Shown one piece after another: positions 2,052 through 19,016 of a stretch of 64,000 nt of DNA. This DNA is from an uncultured Acidobacteriia bacterium (GTDB taxonomy: Bacteria; Acidobacteriota; Terriglobia; Bryobacterales; Bryobacteraceae). How positions within the stretch are numbered: position 1 is the stretch's first letter; every line of letters begins with the position of its first letter. The notes below the pieces were generated by a model. That model ran no database searches, was not told the origin of the DNA, and worked only from the letters and a program-made list of their open reading frames with translations. Both the position numbers and the translations under genes were made by a program. The stretch lies in NCBI GenBank assembly GCA_903907865.1, contig CAIVPR010000044.1, forward strand, positions 186,001 through 250,000, written 5' to 3'.

Positions 2052-4106
2052 CTATTCCACCAAAGCCTTGAACACGGCATCCGCCGCATCCTTGTAAAAC
2101 TCAATGCTGATCTGCGTCCACAAATCATCCGGCAGATCATTCAACTGCCGTCGTGCCGTCACCGGCATCAGCAACGTCTGCGCCTGCTTGTCGATCGCCA
2201 ATTCCGCAATCTGTACCGCATTCGGAATCATGTCGATTGACCCGCCCAGGTTCAGCGCCCCTACAATGATCGTCCCGCCCTTGGTGTTCTTTCCCAGCAG
2301 CGACCCGCACAACGCCACCAGCGCCGCCAACCCCAGCCCCGTCCCCGACCGGTCCGCGTCAACCGCCCGCATCTGCACCGAGAACTCGTGTTCCCGCGGG
2401 TCCCGGTCTCCTACCAGTTCCTTCGCCCTGGTGTACAAATTCTGCTCGCCCACCCGCACGCTTTCCTTCAATGCCGGTGGTGCCGGCTGGTTTAGAATTT
2501 TTACTCCCGATCCCGGCCCCGACGTCACCTCCAGCCTGTACAGTCCCACCCCCGTCTCCATCGAACCTGTTCCCACCGCCCATACCTGCCCCGGCGGCAG
2601 CGGGTCGGTTTCAATCGCCTCATCGCTGTGCAATTCCGGGGTCGACACAAACTGTTCCACGCCCTCCGCTCCCATCGTGTAGCTGAAATGCGTGTTCCGA
2701 AACTCGCTCTTGAACACCCGCTTCTGCTGCTCTTTGACCCGCCTCCGGCTTTCCAGCGCGATCCGCACCATCCACTCCAGATCCTCGTCCGGCACGCCCG
2801 CGTCCGTTGACGGAAACAGTAGCTTCGTCAAGCCGCTCACGGTCTTGTTGACGGCTTCAATATCCCGACCGCTTAGCGCCCCCCCCAGATACACCCGACC
2901 CTGCAGCACATTCACACGGCTCCCGGCCCGCAGCTTGTTCCAGCACTCGCTCAGGAAATCGCTCACCAGTCCGAAATGGTTCGTCAGATGCTCCGACTGC
3001 TTCAACTTTGGAAAATCCCACCCCGGCACAAATGCATGGATCCGGTCCATGAACGCTGTATCGTTCCGCATCTCCGGCGGCAACGGGCTCAACAGATGGC
3101 CGATCCTCTGCTGCTGATCCACATCCACGTCGAAATTCCCCACCATCACGATGCTCCCGTCCGCCCGGATATTCTCCTTCCCCCGGCTGAACTGGCCCGA
3201 CGCCATATACCCCTTCATGATGTTCACGCCGTCCTTCTGGTCGAACGAGATCCCCGAGACCTCGTCGAAACACACCACGTCGTACTGGCAGACCAACCCG
3301 CGCTGGCCGCTCGCATTGTTGACGAACATCTTCGCCACCGTCGCCTTGCCCCCCGAAATCAAATGGGAGTACGGCGAGATCTGCTGGAATAAGTGGCTCT
3401 TGCCCGTTCCCCTCGGCCCCAGCTCCACCATGTTGTAGTTCCGCTCCACAAAAGGCACCATCCGCAGCAGGGTGACCTTTTTCGCGCGGTCGTCCAGACT
3501 CCCGGCCTCGATCCCGATCGACCGCAACAGCAGGTCAATCCATTCCGACGTCGAAAATTTGGACCGGCCCCGCGCCAGAACCTCCAGAGCGTCCGATTTC
3601 GACATCTGGATCGGCCGCAACGCTTCCACCGCGAACGGGCGGCCCCCGTTCTCCTGGGCCACCACACCGTCGTATGACAGCGTCACTTCCGCATAGAATC
3701 CGTCCGTGAGCATCCGCTCATGCTCTTTCACCAGCTCACCCGGAATCCGCACATCCCGCAGCGTTAGGCTCGGCAACTCGGCCACGTAGCAGTCGTTCCG
3801 CGTATCCAGCCTTGCCTTTACAAGGTCGATCAACTTCACCGACCCCTGCTCCTTCGCCCTGGCCTTGAACAGTTCCTCTTCCCCCGTCCGGACCGCGCGT
3901 TCCCTCAGTTGCTTCTCAACGATCCGCAACCCTTCCTGGATTTCCTCTTCATCCACGCTTGCGCAATACCGGCCCAAAAGGAACTCCACCACGTACGTCG
4001 GCACCGGATATTGGCGCGAGTACTTCTGGACCAAATCCTTCCTCACCAAGTACCCGTCAAACGCCGCCGCCGCCAAGCGGTCCAAGAGATCCATCTCCAT
4101 GCTCAT
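2052..4106 (-). CDS. brxL: BrxL, BREX type 1 AAA+ / Lon-like protein
   Basis: This is the last gene of the BREX operon. The start at 4106 is chosen because its ATG overlaps the pglZ stop (ATGA), giving 684 residues, about the normal BrxL length; longer reading upstream lies antisense-like within pglZ. A Walker A loop GPRGTGKSH is at about 230-238, with Walker B-like VVCFDEVSG about 50 residues later. The C-terminal 150 residues resemble the S16 Lon-type protease fold, with SGTGLGLAALVAL in place of the Lon serine region and a following GGTIIVGALNLGGSI strand pair. Known BrxL proteins form DNA-binding AAA+ rings needed for phage exclusion in type 1 BREX. Whether the Lon-like part is proteolytic cannot be told from sequence. 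Confidence 0.93.
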   Translation of the reverse strand: MSMEMDLLDRLAAAAFDGYLVRKDLVQKYSRQYPVPTYVVEFLLGRYCASVDEEEIQEGLRIVEKQLRERAVRTGEEELFKARAKEQGSVKLIDLVKARLDTRNDCYVAELPSLTLRDVRIPGELVKEHERMLTDGFYAEVTLSYDGVVAQENGGRPFAVEALRPIQMSKSDALEVLARGRSKFSTSEWIDLLLRSIGIEAGSLDDRAKKVTLLRMVPFVERNYNMVELGPRGTGKSHLFQQISPYSHLISGGKATVAKMFVNNASGQRGLVCQYDVVCFDEVSGISFDQKDGVNIMKGYMASGQFSRGKENIRADGSIVMVGNFDVDVDQQQRIGHLLSPLPPEMRNDTAFMDRIHAFVPGWDFPKLKQSEHLTNHFGLVSDFLSECWNKLRAGSRVNVLQGRVYLGGALSGRDIEAVNKTVSGLTKLLFPSTDAGVPDEDLEWMVRIALESRRRVKEQQKRVFKSEFRNTHFSYTMGAEGVEQFVSTPELHSDEAIETDPLPPGQVWAVGTGSMETGVGLYRLEVTSGPGSGVKILNQPAPPALKESVRVGEQNLYTRAKELVGDRDPREHEFSVQMRAVDADRSGTGLGLAALVALCGSLLGKNTKGGTIIVGALNLGGSIDMIPNAVQIAELAIDKQAQTLLMPVTARRQLNDLPDDLWTQISIEFYKDAADAVFKALVE

Positions 4107-6481
4107 GCCCTCTCCCCCACGCACGTGGTTTGTACCGCCAACACGTTTCCGTCCGCGTCCGAAATCACCACGCTCGCGGCCACGCCCTCGTTCGAGTCGT
4201 CGCCGACCACAAGGCTCACCTCCCCGGAAGAACCTGCCTCTTTCTCGGCCACAATGCTCGTCCCAGCCTGCTTCCAATGCTTCCGGACGTCCACTTTGAC
4301 CCGCGGGTCGTTGGTCTCCACGCGCACCCGGCACCGCATTCCCCGCCACTCCACAGACTGAATCACAGCCCGCGCGCCAACCGTCCCCCGCTCCACCACC
4401 AACTCCGGCACCACGCACTCCTGCGGACTCAGTCCACCATGCGCATAAGTGGCTCCCGTACGGAAGCACGCGATCCCCGGTGGTGAGGCAATCTTCACCT
4501 CCGGCCCCCAATGCCACTCCGACACCGGAACATCCAATTGCGGGTCGCCCTTCACCAGCGCGCACCGAGCCCACTTTGTCTCCGTCAGGTAGGCCGGAAG
4601 GTCCACCTTCGGCAACCCCCCGGGCAGCAGCAGCCAGCCGTGGTCCGTCACCACCCGCACCCGCTGCCACCCCGCATCCAGCAGCGCCCCAACCCGTTCC
4701 GCCACACGGTTCACCTCGCCCTGAAGTTGGCCCGCCAGTCGGCCCTCCAGCGCGTGGCCCAAACTGTCTATACTCCCGCTCTCCGTCCAGCCCCCGCCTT
4801 CCGTTCCTGCCGGTACCCGGATTTCATCCCGATCCCAAACCTCCACCCCGGCGCTTTCCAGTGCCTCCCTCAGCAGCGGGGCCGTCAACGGTTTCCAGCC
4901 CGACTTCCCCTCGATCAGCGGCGTGAAATCGACGCCACTTCCCGCCTTGATCCCGGCCACCGTCTCTGCCGACAGGGGCGCGGCCGCCGGTTTCGCCGTT
5001 GCCGTCACCGTCGGCAGCGCCGACATTCTGTGCCGCACCGCCACCCGCAGCGACCTCGCTTCCAGCTTTGCCGCCAGCCCGGCTGCCACGTCAAACCGCA
5101 ACCCGTCCACAAACACCATGCACGTGTCCCGTTCTCCCCCAGCCTGTCCCACAGCCTTCCGCGCTTGGGGACCCTCACGAGTCACCACCTCCTGGAAATG
5201 CCGCGCACTTGCCGCCAGCCACGGCTCGTACATCGTTCGAACAATCCGCCCCAGAATCTCCACCTCCACCGCTTTCCGCCCACAAGCCAACCCCTCCATC
5301 GCTGCGGCGTCCGCCTCCCATCCCCGCGTGGCATACGCTTCCGCCACCGATTGCAACGTGTTCCCCCCCACCGGCACTTGCGCAGCCCGGGCCAACCGTG
5401 CCAACGGATGCAACGCCTGCGCCCAAACACTTCGGTCCATGTGCGCCCAGACCCACTTCCGGCGCGGACCGTGTTTCGCCTCTAGAGCCAATACCCTCTC
5501 GCAGGCCAACCCCTGCGGCAACAGCGCCGCAGCCTCCAGTTCACCCCTCAGTTCCGTCTCCAGCCTCTCGTTCACCAGCGGGTCCCGTTCTTCCTCAAAT
5601 TCCCGGTCCGCCCCGCCGCGCCCCGCAACCGGTTCCGACATCAACCGTGCCACGCCCTCATAGACCTGCGGTGCCTCCAAAAACCTTACCCACACCCGTT
5701 CCAGTGCCGCGTCCCCTGCCATCAGTCGTCCCGCAACCTCCGCGGCGGGGTGATTCTCAGGACTAAAACCAAACTCTGACTGGCACAGCCCGGCAAACGA
5801 CTCCCACCTGCCTCCCGCCCCCCGCGCCCCAGCCCCCCGCGCCAACGCGTCGAACCCCCTCGGGTCATTCAGCCACAGCAGCAAATCCCGCACCGGATCC
5901 GGCACCGTCAGCTTGTTGAAATCGTCCGAGTCCAACCGCCGACCCCGCAGTGTCCGCGCATCCGTTTCTCCCAGCACCGGCAGCGCCCGCAGAAAGGCCT
6001 CCCCGGTCCGCCGATCCTCCGCCACATCCAGCCCCAGCCCGGACTCCGAACACAGCATCGCCCGCACAGTCCAATCATGTCCGTTCGCCTGGTGCCATAC
6101 CCGCCCCCGGTATTGCAGTTCCACCAGAGGCTTCAGCAACTCCGGACACTCCCCCGGTGCCCGCAGTTCCTGCCGGTTCACTCTGGGCAGATACAGCACA
6201 GGCACCGAATCCTCCGGCCCCGCTTCCGGTAATACCCGGTCCACAATGCACTTCAACCAGATGCTGGGCCCGGTACGCTCCGCTGGATTGTACCGGCCCA
6301 GCGTGAACAGGTTGGGCATGGCCGAACGCAGCGCGGGCAGCAACGGCAGCCACTGCCCGTCGGCGTCCGTCCACACCACGGCCACGGGCGGGGCCGAGTC
6401 CTTCGAGCCCTTGGCGGCCTCCGCGAACGATGCGACCACTGCCTCGACCAGAGTCCCGCCCGTCTTTACCCCTTCAATCAT
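4103..6481 (-). CDS. pglZ: PglZ, BREX alkaline phosphatase-superfamily protein
   Basis: The product is 792 residues. The N-terminal region has the PglZ-type WTDADGQW motif (about 37-44) and the pattern VLYLPRVNRQELR. The phosphatase-like domain begins near residue 454 with VFVDGLRFD, where the Asp is the expected metal ligand, and continues to VVTDHGWLLLPGG, a second metal-binding segment. PglZ is one of the two genes found in all BREX types and is needed for BREX methylation and exclusion. Both ends overlap neighbours by ATGA: the upstream AlbA_2 gene and downstream brxL. This indicates a tightly coupled unit. The protein is rich in Ala, Gly and Arg, like the rest of the operon. Confidence 0.95.
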   Translation of the reverse strand: MIEGVKTGGTLVEAVVASFAEAAKGSKDSAPPVAVVWTDADGQWLPLLPALRSAMPNLFTLGRYNPAERTGPSIWLKCIVDRVLPEAGPEDSVPVLYLPRVNRQELRAPGECPELLKPLVELQYRGRVWHQANGHDWTVRAMLCSESGLGLDVAEDRRTGEAFLRALPVLGETDARTLRGRRLDSDDFNKLTVPDPVRDLLLWLNDPRGFDALARGAGARGAGGRWESFAGLCQSEFGFSPENHPAAEVAGRLMAGDAALERVWVRFLEAPQVYEGVARLMSEPVAGRGGADREFEEERDPLVNERLETELRGELEAAALLPQGLACERVLALEAKHGPRRKWVWAHMDRSVWAQALHPLARLARAAQVPVGGNTLQSVAEAYATRGWEADAAAMEGLACGRKAVEVEILGRIVRTMYEPWLAASARHFQEVVTREGPQARKAVGQAGGERDTCMVFVDGLRFDVAAGLAAKLEARSLRVAVRHRMSALPTVTATAKPAAAPLSAETVAGIKAGSGVDFTPLIEGKSGWKPLTAPLLREALESAGVEVWDRDEIRVPAGTEGGGWTESGSIDSLGHALEGRLAGQLQGEVNRVAERVGALLDAGWQRVRVVTDHGWLLLPGGLPKVDLPAYLTETKWARCALVKGDPQLDVPVSEWHWGPEVKIASPPGIACFRTGATYAHGGLSPQECVVPELVVERGTVGARAVIQSVEWRGMRCRVRVETNDPRVKVDVRKHWKQAGTSIVAEKEAGSSGEVSLVVGDDSNEGVAASVVISDADGNVLAVQTTCVGERA

Positions 6482-7764
6482 TTCCCGCGCTCCGGTGCCG
6501 TCATAGCCGACGCCGCAGGAATCACTAGCAGCAGTTCCTCGCCGTCAATCATCCGGTACTCGGCCGGTTTGCCCGCCAGCGCCTCCGTCCGGTCCAGCAC
6601 AATCCGCACCCCTTCCCCGCGCTTGTCCATCATGGCGCTCCGGTCGGTCTCCAATCCGGCCCGTTCGGAAACCGGACAGCGCGCCAACAAGCTGGTCAGC
6701 ACCTCGTTCCGGGCCGACTGCCGTAGAATCAGGCTCTCCACTGTCATCGTGTTCGCCAACGCCCCCGGCGAATACAGTTCCAGTCGGTCCGAGTACATCC
6801 GAAGGCGGATCTTCGACCCGTATATCGAGTAATCCCGGTGTGCCACCGCATTCACCAGCGCCTCGAAAACCGCTGCCAAGTCGTATTGCGGCACATCCTG
6901 CCGCCCGATGTACTTCCTCGCCTCCACCCGCATGTTCCGCCGCACAAAACGGAGCGCCCCCTCCACCTGTCGGTCGAGCGGCCCCGTAATGTCCTCGGCA
7001 TCCAGCTGATAGGCGGAACCGCCTGGCGAAGGGGTCGACGTTTCGCCCCGGTACGCCACGGCTTGAATGAACGCGTTGGGCAGGAATTGCCGAGGGTCTT
7101 CCGTTGCCAGCAGGACACCGGATACACTCGGTCGCCATGTGCCATCCTCGTCCTTGCACGCCAATCCCAACTTGTGAAGCACCACTTCGGGTGCTTCCAC
7201 CGCAGCTTGCCGCGGCGCAAAACGTTGCCACAAGGCAACACTCAGGTCTCCGAGCACCGCGTTTGGCACGGACTGCTCATCGAATCGCACAATCCTCGCC
7301 TGGCTCCGCTGTTGGAACAACCGGGCAAGGTAGTCCGGCTGCATCAACCGTTTGCTGCTTCCAATCCGCAGGAAATACCCACCCGGACTCAGGTGCACAA
7401 ACAGGCTGCGAGGTACATCCACCTTGAGCACGGGGACCGTTTCTCCGCTAGCCATGGGGAGCTGAAACTTTTCGATGTGCGGCGCGATGGCAGGCCGGAT
7501 CGAATCGTTGCAAACCTCCCGTACCAAGCTTTCCACGGCCTCCAGATGTTCCACCGGAATCCCCACAACTTCGCGCGTCTTGTCATCGACGCCCAGCACG
7601 CAAAGGCCACCCCTGGAGTTTGCCAGCGCGGCCAGTTCGTCCGCCAAATCATTCCGCGACGGTGCTGCCACGCGCCCCCCCGCAAACCGGACTTCCTTCA
7701 ACTCCAGCGACGAATCCTCGCCCAACCGGATCTTCGCCAAAAGCTCCTGCGCCGAATCAAACAT
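6478..7764 (-). CDS. AlbA_2 / RecG-like ATP-binding protein embedded in BREX operon
   Basis: The start at 7764 is preferred over an in-frame ATG at 7800. A strong ribosome site (gaaaggggaag) lies just upstream of 7764, and the extra 12 codons would fall inside a dispersed hairpin repeat. The 428-residue product has an N-terminal AlbA_2 (Schlafen-like) domain: the LELKEVRF strand, ALANSRGGLCVLGVDD, and the following GIPVEHLEA. A central HATPase_c_4-like region contains EALVNAVAHRDYS and DRLELYSPGAL, typical of the RecG-like ATP-binding transcriptional regulator group. Genes of this kind recur as non-core members of BREX islands, but the role is unknown. It is translationally coupled to pglZ (ATGA). 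Confidence 0.85.
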   Translation of the reverse strand: MFDSAQELLAKIRLGEDSSLELKEVRFAGGRVAAPSRNDLADELAALANSRGGLCVLGVDDKTREVVGIPVEHLEAVESLVREVCNDSIRPAIAPHIEKFQLPMASGETVPVLKVDVPRSLFVHLSPGGYFLRIGSSKRLMQPDYLARLFQQRSQARIVRFDEQSVPNAVLGDLSVALWQRFAPRQAAVEAPEVVLHKLGLACKDEDGTWRPSVSGVLLATEDPRQFLPNAFIQAVAYRGETSTPSPGGSAYQLDAEDITGPLDRQVEGALRFVRRNMRVEARKYIGRQDVPQYDLAAVFEALVNAVAHRDYSIYGSKIRLRMYSDRLELYSPGALANTMTVESLILRQSARNEVLTSLLARCPVSERAGLETDRSAMMDKRGEGVRIVLDRTEALAGKPAEYRMIDGEELLLVIPAASAMTAPERGK

Positions 7765-7781
7765 CCACTTCCCCTTTCTCA

Positions 7782-7840
7782 CCCGTTGTGGGGCAGCCAT
7801 TCTTGGCTGCAGCCGCCTTTCCAGGCGGCTATGACCGGAC
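7782..7840 (+). repeat. REP-like double-hairpin repeat, copy 1
   Basis: The element begins cccgttgtggggcag and contains two adjacent hairpins. The first is CAGCCA/TGGCTG with a ttct loop (7794-7809). The second is AGCCGCC/GGCGGCT with a six-base loop (7811-7830). A close copy lies at 23647-23700 and a related leader at 16467-16482. It sits in the 144-bp gap inside the BREX operon, between the metallopeptidase and the AlbA_2 gene. Confidence 0.75.
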
Positions 7841-7908: not shown

Positions 7909-9012
7909 TCATAGCAACTTCATTTGGACCGAGTCCGCCGCCCGCGAAGGTCGGGGCTCCAGCTTGTGCTTCGCCATGTCTTCAATCCGACCGGCAACCT
8001 TCGCAATCAGGTCCAGTGACACCTTCGGTGGTATCCCCGCTTCTCCAACATAGTGGGACACGTAGGCCGCACTGGCCCCACTCAAGCCCAACCGTGTTGT
8101 CACCAAGTAGGCAACAGACTCCGCTTCCACCTCCACCGTCGTATGGTCTAGATTCCTCCGGCTCGGCCACCAGTAGTCCCCATCCGTTCCTAGATGGCCT
8201 AGGTAGATGTGCGCCAACTCATGGCATAAGACGCCAAATTGGCTAGGCGGGTCCAACTGCGAGTGGACCACAATCCTCATTTTGAACTCGCTGTCGCCCT
8301 CGATCCTCGCCGCAAATCCCGAATTGGTCGCTGACAAACTCTTAAGGTCCACCCGAATCCGATCACGCAATCGGGCACCTGCTACGGCCCGGTCCCACCA
8401 AGCCGGGTCCCAGTCGCCCCGAAACGCGGAGAGCTGCGACAACTGCTCCGGCAGTTCAGGTCCTTCCGTCTGGTCCAAGTCGAAAACCAGCATGACCGGA
8501 TGCATCGGTGCCAGAATCAACATCGGCCTTGCATCCTCCCGCAACCTCCGACCGAAACGGCGTTGCCAATCACTCTCCGTGGCATAAAAACTGCAACTTG
8601 GATTCTGGACCTGCACCAGCATGTTGTTGTACGCCGCGTAGTCTCGGAACCGCCCGATGAAGGTAATCATCTCCTCAAACGCGGTCGAACTCCGATACGC
8701 GGCAGACTGCCGCAACAACGCGTCGATTCCTGTTTGGACCTCTCGGCGCGGTCCTGAAGTCCCCGCCAAAGCGGCCTCCAAGTCACCGCTTTGCACAACC
8801 GAGTCGATGTACTGTCGGATCAGCCTTGTGCAAGAGGCATCGTTGGCGAACTGTAACAGGGCCTTTCGGATCGTCGATCTTGCCCTCCACCCGAGTTCCT
8901 TTTCAACACGCTCTACAAGTTCCCAAGCCGATGGACAGCGCTCAGGGCGCAGCTGGGATCCTATGAAGTCGTATGTCTCCCGCTCAAGATCCTCGTAGCT
9001 TGCAGTGCTCAT
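7909..9012 (-). CDS. ArdC-like / ImmA-IrrE-type zinc metallopeptidase in BREX operon
   Basis: The product is 367 residues. It has a clear zinc-protease site HELAH at about 264-268, followed by VEVEAESVAYLV near 293-304, which supplies the usual third (Glu) ligand of ImmA/IrrE-type gluzincins. Upstream, about residues 105-180, the FRDYAAYNNMLVQVQNP pattern followed by an aromatic-rich strand matches the N-terminal ssDNA-binding part of ArdC-like antirestriction proteins; this assignment is by resemblance only. The start ATG overlaps the pglX stop (ATGA), so it is translated right after the methyltransferase. ImmA/IrrE proteases usually cleave a repressor; ArdC proteins bind ssDNA and block restriction. 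A role in controlling BREX or restraining PglX is therefore an inference. Confidence 0.85.
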   Translation of the reverse strand: MSTASYEDLERETYDFIGSQLRPERCPSAWELVERVEKELGWRARSTIRKALLQFANDASCTRLIRQYIDSVVQSGDLEAALAGTSGPRREVQTGIDALLRQSAAYRSSTAFEEMITFIGRFRDYAAYNNMLVQVQNPSCSFYATESDWQRRFGRRLREDARPMLILAPMHPVMLVFDLDQTEGPELPEQLSQLSAFRGDWDPAWWDRAVAGARLRDRIRVDLKSLSATNSGFAARIEGDSEFKMRIVVHSQLDPPSQFGVLCHELAHIYLGHLGTDGDYWWPSRRNLDHTTVEVEAESVAYLVTTRLGLSGASAAYVSHYVGEAGIPPKVSLDLIAKVAGRIEDMAKHKLEPRPSRAADSVQMKLL

Positions 9013-12000
9013 AGCTCCGCGCCGCGCCTCCGTGCCTGCGCACCCCTCTTCACTTGTAGGGAATAATGCAAATCATTCCACCGAGCCCCGTCAAACTCGC
9101 TCCCGCCCGCAAACTCCTCCGACTTCTCATCCCACTTCCAAAACCACGGGAAATCCTCTTTCGCCCGCTGCGGCTCCTTCCCCCGGTCCTTCCCGTACAC
9201 CACCTTCGGCGTCACCCGCAGCACGCAAGCGCCCTTCTTCGGCTTCGTCCCCGGTGCAAGCGTTGTTTGCAACCACGGTCGCAGATTCAACCGCACCCCG
9301 TCATTCAGATCCGGCTCCCACCCGACCGCCTGTTCATGCAACGGCTTCCACCGGACAAACAAGTCATACGGCTTCTCACCCCCAAGAATCTTCTCCAGTT
9401 CCCCCTTCAGGTGCAGCGCCGCCGATAGCCGCCCGTCCGCGCCCTCCGCGCCGGACGAAACCTCGGCCCGCTGCCGAGTAATCCAGTCTCCGAGAAACGT
9501 GTAAATCAACTTTTCCAGCGTCTTCCGCCCCTCGCCATCCGGACCCGCCAGCTTGTGATAGTTCACCAGCGCATGGAACCCGTCCTTGCGACCGTCCCAG
9601 ATGTGCCAGACAAACGGACGCTGGTGGAAGATCCGGCAATGCTCCTCGAAGAACTCGTCCCGCAACCAGACTTCCAGCGACTCGCACCCGCCAAGCAGTT
9701 CCGACAGCTTCGACGCCGACCACTCCTCCCCATATGCGTCCGCCAGCAAAGCTCGCAACCGGTCGGACGCCGACGCCTCCCCGCCAATCGAGTTCAAACA
9801 CACGATGCCGTCCGCGTCGGCATGAGCTTCGAGGCCGTCCGGGGGCAGGGCAGGGCAGTCCGGCAAACTAAAGTCTCGAGCTCGCGGCCAGATATACCCC
9901 ACTAATCGGGCAACCGCAGTGCCCAGCGGGTGATTGGAGTTGATCGGCCCCCCAGAAAACGACCATTGGGTAGGGTCGGTGGAGTCGAGGCTGCATCGGC
10001 CTGGACAGGTGGACAATGCGACGGCTTGCCACTGGTCCGGGTCGAACGTAACCTTACGCAGCGTTTGGTTCGTCACTTTCAAGGTCTGGTCCAAGTTGCG
10101 AACCATGGCCACAAAGCGATCTGACTTGCAGAAGCACAGGAGTGGTAGTAGTAGCCGCTCATCGCTCGGGATGAGAACCGCCACGTTGTTGTCGAATTTG
10201 ACACCCTCGTAGGGGACACATGCCAGTGCACCTATCCTGTTCACGGCGATCCCGCGCAGTCCCCAGGCACGTTGACCGCTCTCATGCATATCATGAAGCT
10301 GGTTGCGAGTTTCAATTGCGTACCTGGAAAGTGCTCCCGTGCCCCGTTCCCACCGGATAGCACACATCAGTCCGGTATCAGCGTTGGTTCCTAAGACGGC
10401 CGTCCTGAAGGGCTCCCAGATATCCGGGTAGGTTAGTATTTCCCAATGGAATGCTGTAAACCGTTCAAGGTCACCAGTAACCGCACCTTGGTAGCTCGCG
10501 GCAAACTGACCCAATGTATTTGCAGTGTCAGCTGATTCCTCAAATAACAGCCTATGGTCTGGGTTCGCCAGTTGAAGCTGCTGGACGAGCCGCGCCAGCT
10601 CTGCGTGCTTTAGAATATTCATCTTGTCCGCCGGGTTCTGTGCTGAAGCGGCATCCAACGCAACGAGTGCGTGCCCGGAGGCCGGACACCTGTTGCTGAT
10701 AGATATTAGAGATACCGTCACAATTTCACCTGTAATTGTGTCGAAAGCACGGGGGCCGAGCCGCGCGAGGATATTCCAGTCCATACGGGACAGTACTCCC
10801 GACCGCAGTCGCTTGTATGCCGAAAGGAATAGCCAGTTTTGCGGCGTCACCAGTGCCACAGATCCGCTATTCTGGCAGAACTTCAAGCACCTGTCGACGA
10901 ATACTGTTGCGAGATCTGCGCTCGAATCAGCGTGGAACTCGCTACAGTACTGCGCTAGAGTTGCGGTCTGCTTTCCTCGTCCAAGGTAAGGGACATTCGT
11001 TGTGACCAGCACGAAAGTATGGGAAAGGATCTTGAATGCGGCGAACACACCGTGAGCGGCAATCGCTAACTCGTTGAATTCAGCATCAATGGACTCGATT
11101 GCAAGTGCGGCTTCCAGAATCTGTAACACCTCATCCGTGCCAGCCGCAAACACATTTGCCTCGAGACCCATCGGGTCTATCAGGCTACCTAGCGTCGGCG
11201 CATCCTTGAACAGCGAGTACAATCGCCTCATCGCTTCTCGCGCAAGGCCATCCTCGCCCGCAAGTTCCACCCACTCGCTCTCGCCAGCATTGATCCCCAA
11301 CCCCGAGCACGCCAAATTCAACTCCGGCAAACCAATATGTTCACCCGTCATCCGCCAAGCCGCCAATGCCAAGTTGAACGCCGCTATCTGCGCGCACCTC
11401 GGATCAATCTCCAACCCGAACAAGTTATCCCGCAACACCGCACCCAGCGCGTGCTGCAGCGACAACCCCTCCTCCGCCATTCGCATTCGCGCCAGAATCG
11501 GCAACGCAAACGTCAGGAAATGCCCGCTCCCCATGCATGGGTCCAACACACGCAGCTCCCGCGCAGTCCGGGGCCAGCCCTCAAACCCGCCCGCCGCCGG
11601 TGAACCGTCCTCGTTCATCCGCAGATACGTCCAGTCATATCCCGGCAACCCCGGCTCAAATCCCGCCGCCCGGCGTTTCGCCGTCCACCACGCCCCGAGC
11701 GTGTTCTCTAGCAGAAACAGGACCATGTAGTCCTCGGTGAACAACTGTGTCACCGCCGGAAGCTCCCGTGCCCCGATCTTCACCTCGGACTTGTTGACCC
11801 GGTCCTTCTCGTCCTTCTGCCAGAACTGGTACACCCACCCCAAACTGTCGTCGGCCCGGAAGATATCAGCGGGCAGCGACGCCATCCGGCTCTCCAACGC
11901 CTGCCGGGTCTCCGGTGGCAATGAAACCCGCAGCACGGGGTCATCCGGCCGGAACACCGCCAACAGCATCCGCTGCGCCAGTTCCGCGGCAACTTCCAAC

Positions 12001-12386
12001 CAGTCCCGACCCTGCTCCCGCGCCAGTTCCCGGACCTCGTCCAACGTCATCGCCAACCCGTGCTCGGCGTCCAGCAGCAGATCGTTCTCCGCCAGAAACC
12101 GTGCAAACAACATCCGGTGCCAATGCTCGTATGCGCATGCCTGCACCAAATGAAAGGTCTCTTGGGTGCCCAGTCGATCATCCCGCTTATCCCCCAGCTG
12201 CCTGCCATTCGCCCGCAACTGCTTCCGCAACTCGCGGTCCTCCGGCGTCATGTGCGGCCAGGGTTCGTGGTGGTGCACGGCATACTGGTCCGTCAGCACT
12301 TTCCGTGCCCCGTCCTCGGCCACGGCCCGCGCCTTGGCGACCGTGTTCTCCAACAATCGGCGGTATTCGCGGTTCAACGTCGGCAT
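9009..12386 (-). CDS. pglX: PglX, BREX type 1 adenine-specific DNA methyltransferase
   Basis: The product is 1125 residues, close to the usual 1100-1200 for type 1 PglX. It begins with the family's typical N-terminus (MPTLNREYRRLLENTV). The S-adenosylmethionine site DPCMGSGHF is at about 282-290, and the catalytic loop is NVPY at about 464-467, a variant of NPPY also common in PglX. The C-terminal half carries target-recognition and spacer regions. Known PglX enzymes methylate N6 of adenine in a 6-7 bp non-palindromic site and mark self DNA. It starts 9 bp after brxC and overlaps the metallopeptidase gene by ATGA. No frame disruption is seen; PglX is often phase-variable, but no homopolymer tract was noticed here. 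Confidence 0.95.
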   Translation of the reverse strand: MPTLNREYRRLLENTVAKARAVAEDGARKVLTDQYAVHHHEPWPHMTPEDRELRKQLRANGRQLGDKRDDRLGTQETFHLVQACAYEHWHRMLFARFLAENDLLLDAEHGLAMTLDEVRELAREQGRDWLEVAAELAQRMLLAVFRPDDPVLRVSLPPETRQALESRMASLPADIFRADDSLGWVYQFWQKDEKDRVNKSEVKIGARELPAVTQLFTEDYMVLFLLENTLGAWWTAKRRAAGFEPGLPGYDWTYLRMNEDGSPAAGGFEGWPRTARELRVLDPCMGSGHFLTFALPILARMRMAEEGLSLQHALGAVLRDNLFGLEIDPRCAQIAAFNLALAAWRMTGEHIGLPELNLACSGLGINAGESEWVELAGEDGLAREAMRRLYSLFKDAPTLGSLIDPMGLEANVFAAGTDEVLQILEAALAIESIDAEFNELAIAAHGVFAAFKILSHTFVLVTTNVPYLGRGKQTATLAQYCSEFHADSSADLATVFVDRCLKFCQNSGSVALVTPQNWLFLSAYKRLRSGVLSRMDWNILARLGPRAFDTITGEIVTVSLISISNRCPASGHALVALDAASAQNPADKMNILKHAELARLVQQLQLANPDHRLLFEESADTANTLGQFAASYQGAVTGDLERFTAFHWEILTYPDIWEPFRTAVLGTNADTGLMCAIRWERGTGALSRYAIETRNQLHDMHESGQRAWGLRGIAVNRIGALACVPYEGVKFDNNVAVLIPSDERLLLPLLCFCKSDRFVAMVRNLDQTLKVTNQTLRKVTFDPDQWQAVALSTCPGRCSLDSTDPTQWSFSGGPINSNHPLGTAVARLVGYIWPRARDFSLPDCPALPPDGLEAHADADGIVCLNSIGGEASASDRLRALLADAYGEEWSASKLSELLGGCESLEVWLRDEFFEEHCRIFHQRPFVWHIWDGRKDGFHALVNYHKLAGPDGEGRKTLEKLIYTFLGDWITRQRAEVSSGAEGADGRLSAALHLKGELEKILGGEKPYDLFVRWKPLHEQAVGWEPDLNDGVRLNLRPWLQTTLAPGTKPKKGACVLRVTPKVVYGKDRGKEPQRAKEDFPWFWKWDEKSEEFAGGSEFDGARWNDLHYSLQVKRGAQARRRGAEL

Positions 12387-12395
12387 GGGCTTCTC

Positions 12396-15300
12396 CTACT
12401 GGATCTGAACCGGTCCGCGCGCCAGCTTGTCCAGCAAATGTGCCCTCTGCCGGGACAGCCACGCGTCCACATCCGTCTCCGACTTCAGCACACTGCGCTC
12501 CAAAGTCAGGAATTGCACTTGCGGCTCCAGCAGTTGGGCGGCAGCCTGCAGCGCCTTGGCTACGCGCGCCGGAATCGCCTCCGCTTCCATGCGCCGCGCC
12601 GCAAGATTCGCGGAATCCAGGGTGGCCAGAAGCGCGTCGTCATTGCCCACCGAAGGCTCTGCGGGAGCCCGGAGTCCAACGGCGTTCAGGATGCGTGCTT
12701 GGTCGGCAGCCGCAAGCTTCTGCCAAGTCGCGTTTCCGGCGAAACCCTCCATCGCGGCGCGGTAGGCTGCGACTTGCTCATCTTGGGCAGAACGGATGGC
12801 CTGTCGGAGCAGATCGGCCAGCCCGACGCGCAACGGCGCGACCGGGTCCGGCTGCGTCAGCAGGAGCCTGTTTTCATGCACTGCGTCCCGCTGGGCGAGC
12901 AATTCGGAGGCTTGCGCTAGGCCCTGCGTATGCGCTGCCAGCCGCTCCACCACGGTCCAGTGCGGCAAACGCCGCCCGATCAGGTCGCCAGTCCGTTTCC
13001 AGTCGGCAATCCGGGCCCGCAAGTCGGACTCGACAGCCCGCAGTGCTGCAAGCCGGTCATTTCCGATCAACCGGCGAATGTCTTCGATATCCTCCACCGA
13101 CGGCCGCACAGGTGCCGGGGCATCGCCGCCCGCCCCCGAAGCAAGGCGCAGAAGGGCCGCAAGGAAGTCCGCAGCCTTGGCATCCAACTCCTCCCCCCTA
13201 GCCCTGACGTCGACCTCTTGGTACAAGGCACGCAGGGCATTCCGTTCGGGGATCGTGAGCGTAATTTTCTCTACCCGCAATTCCGCCTTTGGAATCTTGT
13301 TTTGGTCCAGTTGTCCGGGCGGCACCGGCGCACCGTTCAGCGTCGCCGTAAGATGCTGGCTACGGTGCAGGGCGATAAGCGCCGTGTCCACCGCGTCCTG
13401 CGGCCAGCCGAACGGGCTGCCCATCAGTTCCTTGCGGATCTGTGTGCCGATCTTGCCCGGTCCAATCGCAGTGAGCGTCTGGCGGCAGACCGGGTGTTGC
13501 TCGATGGGTCCGTCGTACTGAATCAGTGAGAAGGGGCGGTCCGCGCCATCGCGCGCCCGTTTCAGCGTGGATTCCCACGTCGAACCGGAGAAATCCGCCT
13601 CCCGGAATCGGGGGAAGAGCCGCGCCAGCGCCGCGTCCGCGCCCGCCCGGATCTTCTCGTCCAAGGAAAGCTGCAGCAGTTCATTGCCCCCGCCTTGGAA
13701 AACCTTGGTGCCTCCCACAATTTCCGCCACCAGTACCTCGCGCTGCCGTTTGGCCAGTGCGTGGCGGCTCTCCATGCTTTGGCGGGCCAGTTGCCCCTCC
13801 GGCGTCGAGGGCACCCCCTTTGCTTGGATCGTTTGTTCCGCAGCCTGTTCCGTGGCGATCGACCCAAGCAGCTCATCCCGTGATTTCCCGGGGATGAAAA
13901 CGAAGAGCATCGGGCTGTTCACCCCAACCCCGCGCGCCGCGTTTAGAATCTCCCGTTCCGCAGTGGAGAATCCGTCCCGCAACCAAACCGGGATCGAGTC
14001 GCTTTCCGCCTTCGGCAAGTCCAGCGTTCGGTGTACTTGGAACTCCCTCTTGACTTTGGCCGCGCCTTGGAAAAGCTTGATCTTGTCGATGACCTTCTGC
14101 ACCTCGGCGGCCAGCAATTGTTCCCGGCGCTCTTCAAAGAACGCCGTGTCGTTCTTCAAGCGTGCTTCCCGCTGCTGGAAGTCGGAATGCCAGTTCCGGC
14201 CCTCTTCCGTCTGGATGCGGAACTCGTCACCGACCTGCATCAGCACGCCCTCGGCGGCCAATGCATCCAACAACCGCGCAACATCCGCCCGCAGCTTGCC
14301 GTTGTCCGCCGTCAAGTCCTGCACCAGCAGGTCCGCTACATGCACCTTGGTGGCACGGACGCCGATGTCGGCACCGCCCTCCCTCGGCAACTGTCCAATT
14401 AGGAACACCAGGCCGCAGATGCGCTGTCGAAGGCGTCCATCCCCCGTCCCGCCACTTGCCCCGTCGCGCCCGAGTGCCAGGATTCGCTCATTGATCTCGC
14501 GGGGCAGCGCCCCGGTCGTGACCATCTCCGGGGCCAGCGCTTCATAAAGGTCGTCACCCGGAATCAGCCTTCCCAGAGGTTGGGAGCTCAACCGGGCAAC
14601 ACAGTCATGGATGATCCGGAGTTGCGAGCGCAACTGGCTCTGCGTACCCGCAGTGTCCACCTGTCGGAAACAGTGCTCCCAGAATCGCCGCCGGACCGGC
14701 AGCAACGGGTAGTCCTGCGCGATCACCCGCTTGTCTTCCTGCCGTTCGCCGATCTTTGTTCCCTGCAGTTGCCGCGAGACTTCCCCTCCATGCTCCGCCA
14801 GCATCTCCGCAATCGGGGACAGGGCGGACGGCTGTTTGCTGAGCAGGACTTTTCGGGTAACGGTTTCCACGTCGGTATCTGACAACTGGATGCGGATCGT
14901 GAACCGGTCCAACAGTTTGTTCAGCAGGCTGGTGCCGGTAAGCGCGGACTGGCCCGCGGCCACCAGCATCACCTGGCTGTCCATCTGCTTGCAGAGAGCC
15001 TCCGCAGCTTCGGTGATCAACACCGAGCGCGTCTCCGAATTCCCGATGTACTGCTGCACCTCGTCGAGGATCAGGATCGTGCAAGGAATCCGGCCATCCC
15101 TACCCGCGCGCTTCAGCACCCGCTTGGTGGCTTGGAGGAACTCTTCGGTGGTCAGGTCGGAGCTCCGCAGCGGAAACTGCGCTTTAATGGTCTCCCGTGC
15201 CGCCATTTCGCTGGAGGCGAAGTTTGGATCGCATGCCAGCACGGCCTTGCTGAGCAGGGGACTCACATAGAGGTTGTTCAACTCCTGCGCCCAAGCTTTG

Positions 15301-15881
15301 CCGCCGTTCTCCACCGCGGCCTTCACGGCATCCAGGAACCCGCGCTCTTCCAGCCACAATTGGAACTGGGCCTGCGTGTACTGCATCGGAAGCCCGCACG
15401 CCCGCAGCAGGATTCCCAGAATGCTCAACCGGACATTGTCGGTTGTTCCGGCGGGAAGGCTGCCAGCCGCAGCCAGCATGCCGCCGCTTCTGCGACCGAC
15501 GATATCGAGCTCCCGCAGCAACTCCCGCACTTCCTCCGGCAACTCCGGCACCAAGCTCCGGGCGGTTGCGCCGTCGGGGAATGTAGTATCCACCCACAGG
15601 TGGCACAACATCTTGAGAAGGTGGGATTTGCCGCTGCCGAAGAACCCGCTCACCCATGCGGCCTTCTGGCTGGTTTGGCTCCGGCCTCCCACAAAGGAGG
15701 AGAGGATCTTGATCATCCCCTCCGCGTATTGCCCCTCGCAGACAAAGGTCGAAAGTTCGCCACGGAGTTCGCTGGTGACGTTGTCATTCGGCCCTTCGCC
15801 CGAGATTCGGGCTTGGCCGTTATTGACCAATCCTGCTGTGGCTGGGTCGCGCAGTAGCGTCTGGCCGATGAGTAGCGGCAT
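12396..15881 (-). CDS. brxC: BrxC, BREX ATP-binding protein
   Basis: The start at 15881 is chosen because it overlaps the brxB stop as TGATG and is preceded by a G-rich ribosome site (tcggggggata); an in-frame ATG further upstream would run into brxB. The product is 1161 residues. Walker A GFFGSGKSH is at about 79-87 within a typical BrxC/PglY N-terminal segment (WVSGFFGSGKSHLLKMLCHL). Walker B-like TILILDEVQQYIG follows about 190 residues later. The middle is rich in charged helices. BrxC is a large P-loop ATPase present in almost all BREX types, thought to work with PglX and PglZ in recognising or blocking phage DNA. Confidence 0.95.
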   Translation of the reverse strand: MPLLIGQTLLRDPATAGLVNNGQARISGEGPNDNVTSELRGELSTFVCEGQYAEGMIKILSSFVGGRSQTSQKAAWVSGFFGSGKSHLLKMLCHLWVDTTFPDGATARSLVPELPEEVRELLRELDIVGRRSGGMLAAAGSLPAGTTDNVRLSILGILLRACGLPMQYTQAQFQLWLEERGFLDAVKAAVENGGKAWAQELNNLYVSPLLSKAVLACDPNFASSEMAARETIKAQFPLRSSDLTTEEFLQATKRVLKRAGRDGRIPCTILILDEVQQYIGNSETRSVLITEAAEALCKQMDSQVMLVAAGQSALTGTSLLNKLLDRFTIRIQLSDTDVETVTRKVLLSKQPSALSPIAEMLAEHGGEVSRQLQGTKIGERQEDKRVIAQDYPLLPVRRRFWEHCFRQVDTAGTQSQLRSQLRIIHDCVARLSSQPLGRLIPGDDLYEALAPEMVTTGALPREINERILALGRDGASGGTGDGRLRQRICGLVFLIGQLPREGGADIGVRATKVHVADLLVQDLTADNGKLRADVARLLDALAAEGVLMQVGDEFRIQTEEGRNWHSDFQQREARLKNDTAFFEERREQLLAAEVQKVIDKIKLFQGAAKVKREFQVHRTLDLPKAESDSIPVWLRDGFSTAEREILNAARGVGVNSPMLFVFIPGKSRDELLGSIATEQAAEQTIQAKGVPSTPEGQLARQSMESRHALAKRQREVLVAEIVGGTKVFQGGGNELLQLSLDEKIRAGADAALARLFPRFREADFSGSTWESTLKRARDGADRPFSLIQYDGPIEQHPVCRQTLTAIGPGKIGTQIRKELMGSPFGWPQDAVDTALIALHRSQHLTATLNGAPVPPGQLDQNKIPKAELRVEKITLTIPERNALRALYQEVDVRARGEELDAKAADFLAALLRLASGAGGDAPAPVRPSVEDIEDIRRLIGNDRLAALRAVESDLRARIADWKRTGDLIGRRLPHWTVVERLAAHTQGLAQASELLAQRDAVHENRLLLTQPDPVAPLRVGLADLLRQAIRSAQDEQVAAYRAAMEGFAGNATWQKLAAADQARILNAVGLRAPAEPSVGNDDALLATLDSANLAARRMEAEAIPARVAKALQAAAQLLEPQVQFLTLERSVLKSETDVDAWLSRQRAHLLDKLARGPVQIQ

Positions 15882-16441
15882 CAATATCCCCCCGAACTGT
15901 GTACCGTAATCGGCACTGCCAAATAGTTCCACCCGTCTCGTGCGTCAAGCAGGCGGTAGTTGTTGTCCTGGCATCCGCCTGGAAAGAAGACCACCAAGCG
16001 GCCTTGTACGGACTGTTCCACCAGCTTCAAGATCCCGGCAACACGTGCAAATCCGAATAGCGTGCCGACCCCGAATACTGCCACCACCGAGGTCTTGGAC
16101 ACCTCTGGACGCTCCAGCGCTGCCCGTATTCGCGCGGCGACATATTCGGAAAACTCCGATTCCAGCTTAAGCTGCAAGTCTTCGGGCGATTCGAAATACG
16201 CATCCCGGTACTCCTCCGAGGCCATCCACTCGCCGAATGCCCGCGAGATGTCGACCTCGAACCATTCGTGTCCGGCATCCTTCGTCGCGATCTCGAACTG
16301 CGTCTTCCGCGATTGCAGGATCCTCTCGTCGGCTTTGTCATAGACAACCATGAGGATCCGCTGCGCCCCGGCAATGGTCTGCTGCCACGGCAGCGCCACA
16401 TGCTGGCGATACTTCTCGGCGAGTTGTTCGATCTTCCCCAT
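15881..16441 (-). CDS. brxB: BrxB, DUF1788 family BREX protein
   Basis: The product is 186 residues from the ATG at 16441. A longer reading from 16489 would put about ten codons inside a repeat leader (gttgtagggca), so the shorter form, beginning MGKIEQLAEKYRQHVALPWQ, is preferred; the ribosome site is weak in both cases. The body has the DUF1788 pattern: RILMVVYDKADERI, a VFGVGTLFGF segment, and LVVFFPGG near the end. BrxB is a small core component of type 1 BREX needed for protection, with no known enzymatic activity. It overlaps brxC as TGATG and is separated from brxA by 141 bp that hold a hairpin. Confidence 0.88.
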   Translation of the reverse strand: MGKIEQLAEKYRQHVALPWQQTIAGAQRILMVVYDKADERILQSRKTQFEIATKDAGHEWFEVDISRAFGEWMASEEYRDAYFESPEDLQLKLESEFSEYVAARIRAALERPEVSKTSVVAVFGVGTLFGFARVAGILKLVEQSVQGRLVVFFPGGCQDNNYRLLDARDGWNYLAVPITVHSSGGY

Positions 16442-16466
16442 CAGTCTGTCCAAGTCTTCCGTTTTT

Positions 16467-16582
16467 CCCGTTGTAGGGCAGGTTGTCAATCTGCGGCCGG
16501 GTCGCCGACACGGCCACGCGACCAGCGGTCGCGCCGCTTGGTTGCGGCTCCGCTGCTCTGCGGCCAGCCGTCCCGTCCCGTC
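16467..16582. repeat. Repeat leader and hairpin in brxA-brxB gap
   Basis: The gap starts with cccgttgtagggcag, shared with the REP-like elements at 7782 and 23647 (one or two differences), but then diverges. It holds a perfect 7-bp stem with a 3-base loop, CGCGACC-agc-GGTCGCG, at 16517-16533, among other GC-rich inverted repeats. In the BREX transcript this hairpin lies between the brxA stop and the brxB start. No open gene is seen. Confidence 0.6.
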
Positions 16583-17398
16583 CTAAAAGCTCCGCCCCGA
16601 CCGTCCTGCCCCAGGGTCCAACCGATCCAAATTCATGTCGATCACATCCCCGGCCATCCGTAGTTCAATCAACCCTTGCCGTTTCGCCTTCCCCGCCAAT
16701 TCCAGCACCTCGGACCGACTGCAGTCGAGAACCCGCACCCAATCCGAAGTCAAGCTTTCCGCCACGCCCATGCCCGCCACCCTTGCCAGAAGCAAAGCAA
16801 AGGCGACCGAGCCGGGCGTCGCCTGCACCCGGCGACGCGATTTGAAAGTTCGCCCGACCAAGTGCCCCGACTGCACCCACGTGCTCGAAGTGTTGCGGAC
16901 AATCTTGTCAATCGTATCCTCCTTCATCCGCCCATGCACCGAGTCGGCCACAGCGCTTGTCATGGCACCACGCGACAATTCGGCACCCGGTGGCATTCCC
17001 GCAATCACCGCCGAGGTCGCCCGCAGCAGGGGGTCGCGGGCCAAGCTGCACAACAGGGCCAGGAGGGGGTGGCTCTCCGAATCGATCCGCCAAAGTCCCG
17101 CCAGGACCCGGAACAATGGTAGTCCCGTGTCCAATCCGTATAGTTCCCGCAGATGTTGCAGCGAGTGGCGGCGGGTGGCGGCAGTCTGTTTTCCCAGGCA
17201 ATTCTCTTCCACGATGGCAGCGGCATACGCCTCCGGCTGGCTGTCCGCCGGCACCTGCGACAGCACAGCCTTCAGTTCATCCAGCATCATTGTTCTGCTG
17301 GAGTGCGTGCCAACATGTCCGAATCGAAAACCGTAGTTCCCAGCCAGGGCGTAGTTGCACCCCGGCTGGAAAAACGAATTGCTGCTTGCCTGGTCCAT
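16583..17398 (-). CDS. brxA: BrxA, DUF1819-like BREX protein
   Basis: The product is 271 residues and starts 3 bp after the upstream nuclease-like gene. Visible family-like features are the N-terminal LAGNYGFRFG segment, AIVEENCLGKQTAATRRHSL, LFRVLAGLWRID, and the SSTWVQSGHLVGRTFK block near residue 160-175. The C-terminal region is winged-helix-like and rich in charged helices. DUF1819/BrxA proteins are small all-helical DNA-binding members of BREX types 1, 3 and 6. It matches its position directly before brxB and brxC. The assignment rests on position and general pattern, so it is slightly less sure than the other core genes. Confidence 0.8.
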   Translation of the reverse strand: MDQASSNSFFQPGCNYALAGNYGFRFGHVGTHSSRTMMLDELKAVLSQVPADSQPEAYAAAIVEENCLGKQTAATRRHSLQHLRELYGLDTGLPLFRVLAGLWRIDSESHPLLALLCSLARDPLLRATSAVIAGMPPGAELSRGAMTSAVADSVHGRMKEDTIDKIVRNTSSTWVQSGHLVGRTFKSRRRVQATPGSVAFALLLARVAGMGVAESLTSDWVRVLDCSRSEVLELAGKAKRQGLIELRMAGDVIDMNLDRLDPGAGRSGRSF

Positions 17399-17401
17399 TC
17401 T

Positions 17402-18943
17402 CTATGCCGCCATTGGAAGCGCGATCCTCAGCCCGTTCAGTTGACGGTCCAACGATTCGATCTCCCTCTTCAAGTCTGCTCGCATCTTGGTTGCTCGTTC
17501 TACCACTTTGTCGCCATTGCTGCGGACCGTCTCCGCCCAGGTCTTGATCTGCTCCAGACTGTCCAATTGCTTCTCAATGGCACGTGTCGCAACGTCAATC
17601 GCCTTCAGTGCATGATCGCTCTCGATGGAATCATGGCTTTCCCGGATCACTAGGGCGCGCGCAACGCTAAAGGCAACTTGAACGCGCAGGTCGCTATCGA
17701 CATTCTCCGAGTCCCACGTTATCAATATGTCATCGCCATAGCGGGCGAAGGGCCCCAACGATTCTGGTGCAGTCTTCGTGGAGAAGACAAAGATCCCAAT
17801 CTGCGCTTGGCGATTCTTGCGTCCCTCTGCAACTTCAGCCAGCGCGCGTGTCAGGTTGTAGCTTCCATCCTCCTTCGCTTCCCATACAATCCGGGCTCCG
17901 GGAGCCGCGCTGTCGGGCCCGAGGGTTGTGACAAAGTCTCCGGTCTTGCAGTTCTTAATCACACCGGTCGTCTGCCCCACAGACTCGAACGGGTCGTTCT
18001 GCTTTTGTGCTTCTACTGCCAAGAGGCGACCCAACTCCGCTTCGAACGTGTTGCCGTGGCGTTTGGAGCGCGAAGCTTCCTTCTTTGTAGCCTGCATTGC
18101 CGCCAAGGCCTCCCGGACATCGCTGCGGAATGTGGCATTGTCCTTGGCAATCCCTTCCACCAAATGCACCAGTTCCCGCTTGATACGAGACAACGGTGAC
18201 GCTTCGTCGTCCAACGTCAAGCTCTCGTGAATTCGGCTCCGTGCGCTTTCGACGCCTTGCACCAGCCGCGACAACGCCGAGTCCGGGTGGTCAAGAGAGA
18301 ATTCCTTAGCCAACCGGTCAACCTCTCCTTGCAACTCCGTTTTCAGTACGCCATTGCTCGTCGTCAGCTCCCGAACCATCCTGGTAAGCGCGGAGGCCGG
18401 ATTGTCCAGCGAGAATTCTTTCAATACCCGGGCCTGTTGCTCTGTCAAGACCGTTGCTACAGTCTTTTCAATGTCGCCCTTGAGTTGGGAGAGCGGACTG
18501 CCGGCACCCAAATGTTTAGTAAGGGATTCGGTCAATGTGGAGTTTTGTCCGCCCAGATGGGCTCGCAGCATCTTGTCCAATTCCCCGTCTCCCCGCACCA
18601 ACGCCTCGATGCGTTGCGGGAAGCAGCCTGTAGTGGGATCAAAATACTGGGTAACCGTCTTGGTAATCGATTGAAGAATGTCGTTGCCCCGGCTCTCCAA
18701 TGTGTGCTCCATATCGGCAATCATTTTTTCGCCAGCATTGCGGATGGTCGTGGCATCAAGTTCGCCCGCAGCTTGCCGGAGTGCCAATACCCCCAATCGT
18801 AGTGCCCCAGTTGCGTACTGTTCGCGTGGGGTCCCTTCGGGATACTTCCGTAGTTCTGTTATCACGTCAGGATCCGAAACCTCCAATTGCAAGCGGACGT
18901 TCGTCTGGGAAAAACCATGTTCTGTGTGTGTCTGTGTCTGCAT
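17402..18943 (-). CDS. Coiled-coil protein with PD-(D/E)XK nuclease-like C-terminus, first gene of BREX operon
   Basis: The product is 513 residues. The N-terminal two thirds are charged and helical with a repeated motif: GSPLSQLKGDIEKTV (about 148), FSLDNPASALTRMV (about 177), FSLDHPDSALSRLV (about 215) and LTLDDEASPLSRIKREL (about 242). The consensus is hxLDxxxSxLxRhh. After a basic linker (SRSKRHG, about 291) the C-terminal domain has FEAELGRLL, GDFVTTL (Asp336) and IVWEAKED (Glu355, Lys357), then NRQAQIGIFVFS. This is the D...ExK order of a PD-(D/E)XK nuclease, as in DUF2130-like proteins. A final coiled coil ends the chain. It is not a BREX core gene, yet it is promoter-proximal and only 3 bp from brxA. 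A DNA-sensing or cleaving accessory is the most natural reading; nuclease activity is inferred. Confidence 0.85.
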   Translation of the reverse strand: MQTQTHTEHGFSQTNVRLQLEVSDPDVITELRKYPEGTPREQYATGALRLGVLALRQAAGELDATTIRNAGEKMIADMEHTLESRGNDILQSITKTVTQYFDPTTGCFPQRIEALVRGDGELDKMLRAHLGGQNSTLTESLTKHLGAGSPLSQLKGDIEKTVATVLTEQQARVLKEFSLDNPASALTRMVRELTTSNGVLKTELQGEVDRLAKEFSLDHPDSALSRLVQGVESARSRIHESLTLDDEASPLSRIKRELVHLVEGIAKDNATFRSDVREALAAMQATKKEASRSKRHGNTFEAELGRLLAVEAQKQNDPFESVGQTTGVIKNCKTGDFVTTLGPDSAAPGARIVWEAKEDGSYNLTRALAEVAEGRKNRQAQIGIFVFSTKTAPESLGPFARYGDDILITWDSENVDSDLRVQVAFSVARALVIRESHDSIESDHALKAIDVATRAIEKQLDSLEQIKTWAETVRSNGDKVVERATKMRADLKREIESLDRQLNGLRIALPMAA

Positions 18944-18987: not shown

Positions 18988-19016
18988 ATTGTGCCATGGG
19001 CAGATGAAAAGGTCAA
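18988..19016 (-). promoter_or_regulatory. Predicted sigma-70-type promoter of the BREX operon
   Basis: On the minus strand a -35 box TTGACC (19016-19011) and a -10 box CACAAT (18993-18988) are separated by 17 bp. This places the transcript start near 18981, about 40 bp before the first gene. An AT-rich stretch (gtaattat) precedes the -35 box. The promoter is bracketed exactly by two 18-bp palindromes. Coordinates may be off by one base. Confidence 0.6.

Follow-up and report, generated by a model that had tools for sequence, protein, structure and literature searches.

In type I bacteriophage exclusion (BREX) systems, PglZ is reported to be a metal-dependent nuclease (PMC12205998). According to section 34 of that paper, defence with a nuclease-dead PglZ drops by about three logs but is still active; as it is reduced rather than lost, other DNA-damaging parts are worth seeking. 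A catalogue that includes auxiliary PD-(D/E)XK enzymes from BREX loci appeared in 2026, and its section 35 proposes a back-up role for them (PMC12839542). The WYL regulator BrxR is reported to be encoded by the leading gene of Acinetobacter BREX (PMC9122589). Here we analysed 64,000 nucleotides of contig CAIVPR010000044.1 from an uncultured Acidobacteriia bacterium (the window), in which a gene for a predicted repeat-bearing PD-(D/E)XK nuclease of 513 residues (17402..18943, minus strand) stands at the head of a BREX operon. The gene was defined by its open reading frame (ORF) with ATG start and its translation, and the protein by family alignment and predicted fold.

On the computed evidence (predicted fold, catalytic triad, repeats, tight operon position, rarity in the lineage, and occurrence without BREX), we favour, with modest confidence, the reading that a PD-(D/E)XK nuclease from a mostly BREX-free family serves as an auxiliary DNA-cutting effector in this operon. 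The nuclease looks like a borrowed extra weapon, and the operon offers a testable second nuclease.

A predicted nuclease at the head of a BREX operon

The nuclease domain was placed at residues 296-440 (17624..18058, minus strand) by the predicted fold. Its core order, helix-strand-strand-strand-helix-strand, is that of the PD-(D/E)XK core fold, and the nearest solved folds to this predicted core were Can2, McrC and Bax1. In the model, Asp336 (17936..17938, minus strand) begins one strand, and Glu355 and Lys357 of the ExK motif Glu355-Ala356-Lys357 (17873..17881, minus strand) finish the next; these residues are predicted to be catalytic. In the family alignment of 77 rows, D336 was found in 72 (with four gaps and one H), E355 in 72 and K357 in 73 (three gaps each). 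All three occurred together in 72 of the 77 rows, the other five being four fragments and one diverged copy, and they were invariant across 39 family members. Judged by predicted fold and conserved triad, the protein is a probable nuclease of the PD-(D/E)XK superfamily and would be expected to cleave. A sequence-only reading of the gene had proposed an enzyme of this kind, with exact coordinates and residue numbers (G335-D336-F337 and E355-A356-K357); predicted fold and triad agree with it, and no confident match to a non-nuclease family arose. It had also described a repeat-bearing N-terminal half and a closing coiled coil. Both are helical in the models, and the closing long helix (residues 441-513; 17405..17623, minus strand), which corresponds to a model helix at 415-512, is probably a coiled coil. 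At locus L116 (9801-10862), a diverged relative of 353 residues has H, D and R aligned at the D, E and K sites and is perhaps an inactive or misaligned copy.

The TAG stop codon of the nuclease gene is followed by AGA and then by the ATG of BrxA, leaving a gap of three bases on the same strand. Downstream come, in this order, BrxA, BrxB, BrxC, PglX, a 367-residue protein, a Schlafen AlbA_2/HATPase protein, PglZ type B and BrxL. With BrxA directly downstream and the rest of the BREX set behind it, the nuclease gene comes first in a type 1 BREX operon complete in its six core genes; the sequence-only reading had likewise put it at the operon's head. The further suggestion of a promoter-proximal sensor found no support. 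Its premise, a BREX with no DNA-breaking step of its own, is out of date given the reported PglZ nuclease (PMC12205998) and auxiliary PD-(D/E)XK enzymes (PMC12839542), and the PglZ report weakens the claim that BREX needs an outside nuclease.

The auxiliary nucleases in section 35 of PMC12839542 are the closest likeness in a described BREX context, being PD-(D/E)XK enzymes that adjoin or lie within the core genes, alongside PglZ. They differ in architecture, as those described there occur either as single-domain proteins standing alone or as fusions with HARE-HTH, ATPase, helicase or Shedu-type sensory modules. The terms DUF2130, RmuC, Mrr and Acidobacter are absent from the main text of that paper, whose supplementary tables may list the family. 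A literature search found no publication linking BREX with DUF2130; the DUF2130 papers it returned were, by their titles, not on BREX.

Repeats and the N-terminal block

Three canonical copies of the repeat motif were found on the minus strand, from residue 177 (FSLDNPASAL, FSLDNPASALTRM; 18356..18415), from residue 215 (FSLDHPDSAL, FSLDHPDSALSRL; 18242..18301) and from residue 242 (LTLDDEASPL, LTLDDEASPLSRI; 18161..18220). A fourth copy had been claimed from the sequence; what motif search recovers there is a degenerate form at residues 146-154 (GAGSPLSQL; 18482..18508, minus strand) without the LD, so that three of the four copies stand as described. With a relaxed form of the motif, the real protein gave six matches, some overlapping, at four places; among 20,000 shuffles, 63 had at least one match and the maximum was three. 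The repeats are genuine. Across the 77 rows, fragments included, successive copies were spaced by 27 residues 73 times and by 38 residues 56 times, with seven other values, and 10 rows had no copy matching the motif pattern used. In the alignment, some relatives carry one additional 27-residue block beside the position of the window's copy 3, and the relatives at L035, L041 and L052 are without the 38-residue stretch that separates copies 1 and 2. Repeat units thus come and go as whole blocks. The models place helices between the motif loops, at a predicted local distance difference test (pLDDT) score of about 55-70; the N-terminal half modelled alone gave a predicted template modelling score of 0.26.

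Ahead of the repeats lies a conserved block at residues 17-58 (L.LxVxDxDxI..L...ALRIGVLALRQA; 18770..18895, minus strand), with two predicted helices at 25-31 and 38-58. Over residues 21-50, the N-terminal model has block means of pLDDT of 86-89. A ribbon-helix-helix-like role for it is a guess. The strong conservation of this block would suit an explanation in which the protein is a regulator or scaffold in BrxR's place, its N-terminal block and repeats binding DNA or BREX proteins and its nuclease domain serving for folding or rare use. The slot before BrxA can indeed hold a regulator, as seen from BrxR in Acinetobacter (PMC9122589, as reported there) and from a WYL gene immediately upstream of BrxA in L082, another BREX locus. 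However, Pfam recognised no DNA-binding domain in the window protein, the catalytic triad is strictly conserved, and locus L040 of a betaproteobacterial relative has both a WYL regulator and the nuclease, which hence are not alternatives there. We consider a regulator or scaffold improbable.

Family assignment

The protein is filed in the PD-(D/E)XK superfamily with no named family in the libraries searched (Pfam, NCBIfam, PADLOC and PHROGs). DUF2130 (PF09903), which the sequence-only reading had named as a target for profile search, was the best Pfam match. It covered residues 276-502, that is the nuclease domain and the closing helix, at 24.0 bits, below the gathering cut-off of 26.7, and at E up to 0.01 it matched one of the 39 members; Mrr_cat (PF04471) matched two of the 39, equally weakly. 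Being below the Pfam cut-off and found in a single member, DUF2130 was rejected as the family name, and its sequence similarity would make it at best a distant relative. Several further matches were set aside as weak: Baculo_PEP_C of Pfam, scattered over 4 of 39 members; PDC-S06 of PADLOC, which matched 14 of the 39 with E no better than 5.8e-5 and on the window protein covered residues 151-299 alone (E 0.066); EzrA of NCBIfam in one of 39 (E 0.0043); and 11 scattered PHROGs, each in at most 2 of 39 members (best E 4.1e-4).

Full-length homologues included three haloarchaeal proteins and one methanogen protein (hhalign E 1e-32). In a 68-row tree, the window protein grouped with an Acidobacteriota protein (support 99/96) and with two Myxococcales proteins, with 48% identity to that of L041; the latter grouping, at 95/47, is not firm.

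Two described architectures resemble this one. RmuC is reported to have the same layout, coiled coils flanking an McrC-like PD-(D/E)XK domain, and is predicted to cleave unusual DNA structures (PMC1189080), as proposed below for the window protein. The two appear to differ at the N terminus, where an RmuC protein would carry a transmembrane helix and residues 1-30 of the window protein are, by eye, not hydrophobic. PF02646 (RmuC) did not match the window protein at E up to 1. Comparison of the 39-member profile with E. coli RmuC by hhalign gave a probability of 0.3%, a weak test with RmuC as a single sequence. The second likeness is to McrC, which is among the nearest solved folds, and to coiled-coil nuclease tandems (CoCoNuTs), which are likewise described as combining coiled coils with nuclease domains; unlike those systems, the operon gave no McrB-like GTPase family match in the nine proteins scanned.

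Distribution of relatives and the link with BREX

A pattern-led scan covering 84,980 species genomes yielded 42 loci. Most were from Planctomycetota, with some from Myxococcota, Acidobacteriota and Pseudomonadota, one from a Poribacterium and one from a Coriobacteriia bin. Together with 33 loci from further genomes, 75 were examined. Their ORFs were searched with BREX proteins of the window and of other loci, and no BREX system was seen, although several loci are on contigs below 6 kb, for which BREX is not excludable. The sole match to a BREX query in the 75 loci (PglX, E 6.8e-5) was a 1,016-residue protein in L052, taken for a generic methyltransferase. In the opposite direction, a search of 297 genomes from the window's phylum gave BrxA homologues in 10, one of these being the window's genome; seven plasmid records also had one. 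The nuclease family profile had no match in 12 other BREX loci (ten genome loci and two of the seven plasmid records), among them L071, where only about 0.8 kb of contig remains past BrxA. Some of these loci had other genes upstream of BrxA, namely the WYL regulator of L082 and a helicase in L079. A new BREX core gene was considered and rejected, as the nuclease was found in none of the 12 other BREX loci and BREX in none of the relatives' 75 loci; the nuclease is not a BREX core component. The tie with BREX made in the sequence-only reading comes down to one case, the window, which is the only one seen of this nuclease family in a BREX operon. This lack of a conserved BREX neighbourhood weighs against an auxiliary effector.

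The gene is rare around the window. In prevalence groups that each contain their centre genome, it was found in one of 61 genomes in the search of the window's relatives, that one being the window's; its absence from the 60 others suggests arrival by transfer. Within the window's class, 2 of 299 genomes carry it (the second as a broken remnant), and within its phylum 4 of 297 (one as a short remnant). It was found in 13 of 282 genomes in the phylum of L014, a Myxococcales bin, in one of 74 in the family of the L022 betaproteobacterial bin (that bin itself), and in 10 of 199 in the phylum of Lacipirellula. In the Lacipirellula family, 32 of 43 genomes have the gene, at one place in each. Of these 43 genomes, three have a BrxC above the cut-off, and just two of the three also have the nuclease; at E up to 0.001, BrxC was matched in seven. 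With 32 carriers of the nuclease against three of BrxC, the gene is common in this family and independent of BREX.

A neighbourhood also recurs in the Lacipirellula family, comprising in order a gene for a protein of 1,323-1,416 residues, the nuclease, and then an AAA ATPase and an RNA methyltransferase (PF04452). Among the first 42 loci, these neighbour clusters had 8, 9 and 8 occurrences by locus; the large neighbour protein, checked in one locus (L033), had no Pfam match. This repeated chromosomal setting, the counts for Lacipirellula and the 12 BREX loci without the nuclease are what would be expected of the main rival explanation: an RmuC-like genome-maintenance nuclease that landed by chance upstream of BrxA and is only co-transcribed, with no role in phage exclusion. 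Such a bystander fits less well with the 60 relatives without the gene, which suggest that it was brought in by transfer, with its place at the exact 5' end of the operon, or with relatives that adjoin other modification-based defence systems. We regard it as unlikely, though it is the rival to be taken most seriously.

PglZ and the place of a putative second nuclease

PglZ type B (4103..6481, minus strand) was assigned by NF033450 (790 bits, cut-off 400). In an alignment of six PglZ rows, D459, T493, T495, D572, H576, D613, H614 and H681 were invariant. As the window PglZ keeps these acidic, Thr and His residues, there is no sign of a dead PglZ, and the notion that a second nuclease is there because PglZ has lost its function was rejected. 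The same residues speak against the idea that the protein is the main nuclease for restriction in this BREX variant, in place of the nuclease activity of PglZ. That idea draws on the encoding of the gene together with the core genes, and we think it very improbable.

Since type I BREX with a nuclease-dead PglZ is reported to remain active (PMC12205998) and the window PglZ is apparently intact, a second nuclease would serve as back-up. In the auxiliary effector reading, the nuclease would cut DNA and would be made together with the BREX proteins. Its 27-residue helical repeats and closing helix would probably form an elongated, self-associating arm, with at least two nuclease domains held along DNA or a partner. 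Cleavage would be metal-dependent, and aberrant, branched or incoming DNA would be the probable substrate. We infer that the protein may form oligomers, that its gene may have arrived by gene transfer and that it may contribute to phage exclusion.

Neighbours of relatives outside BREX

Most relatives have unrelated genes around them, and a few adjoin other defence systems. Genes similar to ten defence-type queries were found in 6 of the 75 loci. The queries were taken from those same loci, so that recurrence is shown only in L115, in L022 and between L031 and L055, plus a weak helicase match in L050. In L031 and L055, a helicase, a DUF1156 methyltransferase and a DUF499 ATPase lie directly upstream of the nuclease relative, which is the make-up of the type 1 BREX-related system in section 29 of PMC12839542; L115 has a helicase and a methyltransferase resembling these. 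At the betaproteobacterial locus L040 (8461-21075), a WYL regulator is encoded upstream of the relative, and an HNH protein, a UvrD-type helicase, DrmA and DrmB of the defence island system associated with restriction-modification (DISARM) downstream. L022 has a WYL regulator homologous to that of L040, and L050 an Mrr-type nuclease. Seven plasmid records had a homologue of the nuclease, and four regions were read. In two of the three haloarchaeal regions, the homologue has AAA, VWA and MBL-fold genes nearby; the fourth region, on a methanogen plasmid, has a methyltransferase and helicases. In L055 (9929-18293), the relative appears as two overlapping ORFs, through a true split or an assembly error; on one side of it is the DUF499/DUF1156 system and on the other an Argonaute together with a Cas4-like nuclease.

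The nuclease family ties BREX, BREX-related and DISARM systems to a planctomycete chromosomal gene and could reveal how defence comes to recruit a DNA-processing enzyme. A broader and rather doubtful proposal is that it is a portable nuclease arm with expandable 27-residue helical repeats, which would serve genome maintenance in some planctomycetes and would have been adopted separately by several modification-based defence systems, namely BREX in the window, DUF499/DUF1156 BREX-related systems, DISARM and archaeal AAA/VWA/MBL clusters; repeat number would tune its reach along DNA, and it would destroy DNA flagged as foreign by the host system.

Other features of the operon

Upstream of the nuclease gene, a sigma-70-like promoter match (18988..19016, minus strand) agrees with the consensus at 9 of 12 positions, and an inverted repeat lies at 19041-19024; both are consensus matches alone and prove nothing. 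The remaining operon genes are likewise on the minus strand. BrxA (16583..17398) matched PADLOC PDLC02450 (E 1.4e-90), BrxB (15881..16489) PF08747 above its cut-off and PADLOC BrxB (E 8.5e-76), and the BrxC ATPase (12396..15932) NF033441 at 726 bits (cut-off 400). PglX (BrxX), an adenine methyltransferase (9009..12386), reached 1361 bits with PADLOC PglX and has an Eco57I methylase domain; with the NCBIfam BREX-1 PglX it scored 310 bits, below the cut-off of 500. BrxL (2052..4670) matched PF13337 and PF20442.

Two accessory genes lie inside the operon. The 367-residue protein (7909..9012) has weak similarity to IrrE/M78 metallopeptidases (19.9 bits, below the cut-off of 22); its gene overlaps PglX by four bases and is an unexplained accessory. 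Between it and PglZ sits the gene (6478..7800) whose Pfam matches are the Schlafen AlbA_2 and HATPase_c_4 domains, and its product resembles the Schlafen-type accessory of BREX loci in section 35 of PMC12839542. Past the 3' end of the operon, a cytidine deaminase-domain protein (E 8.6e-15) is encoded on the opposite strand (17-1330, plus strand).
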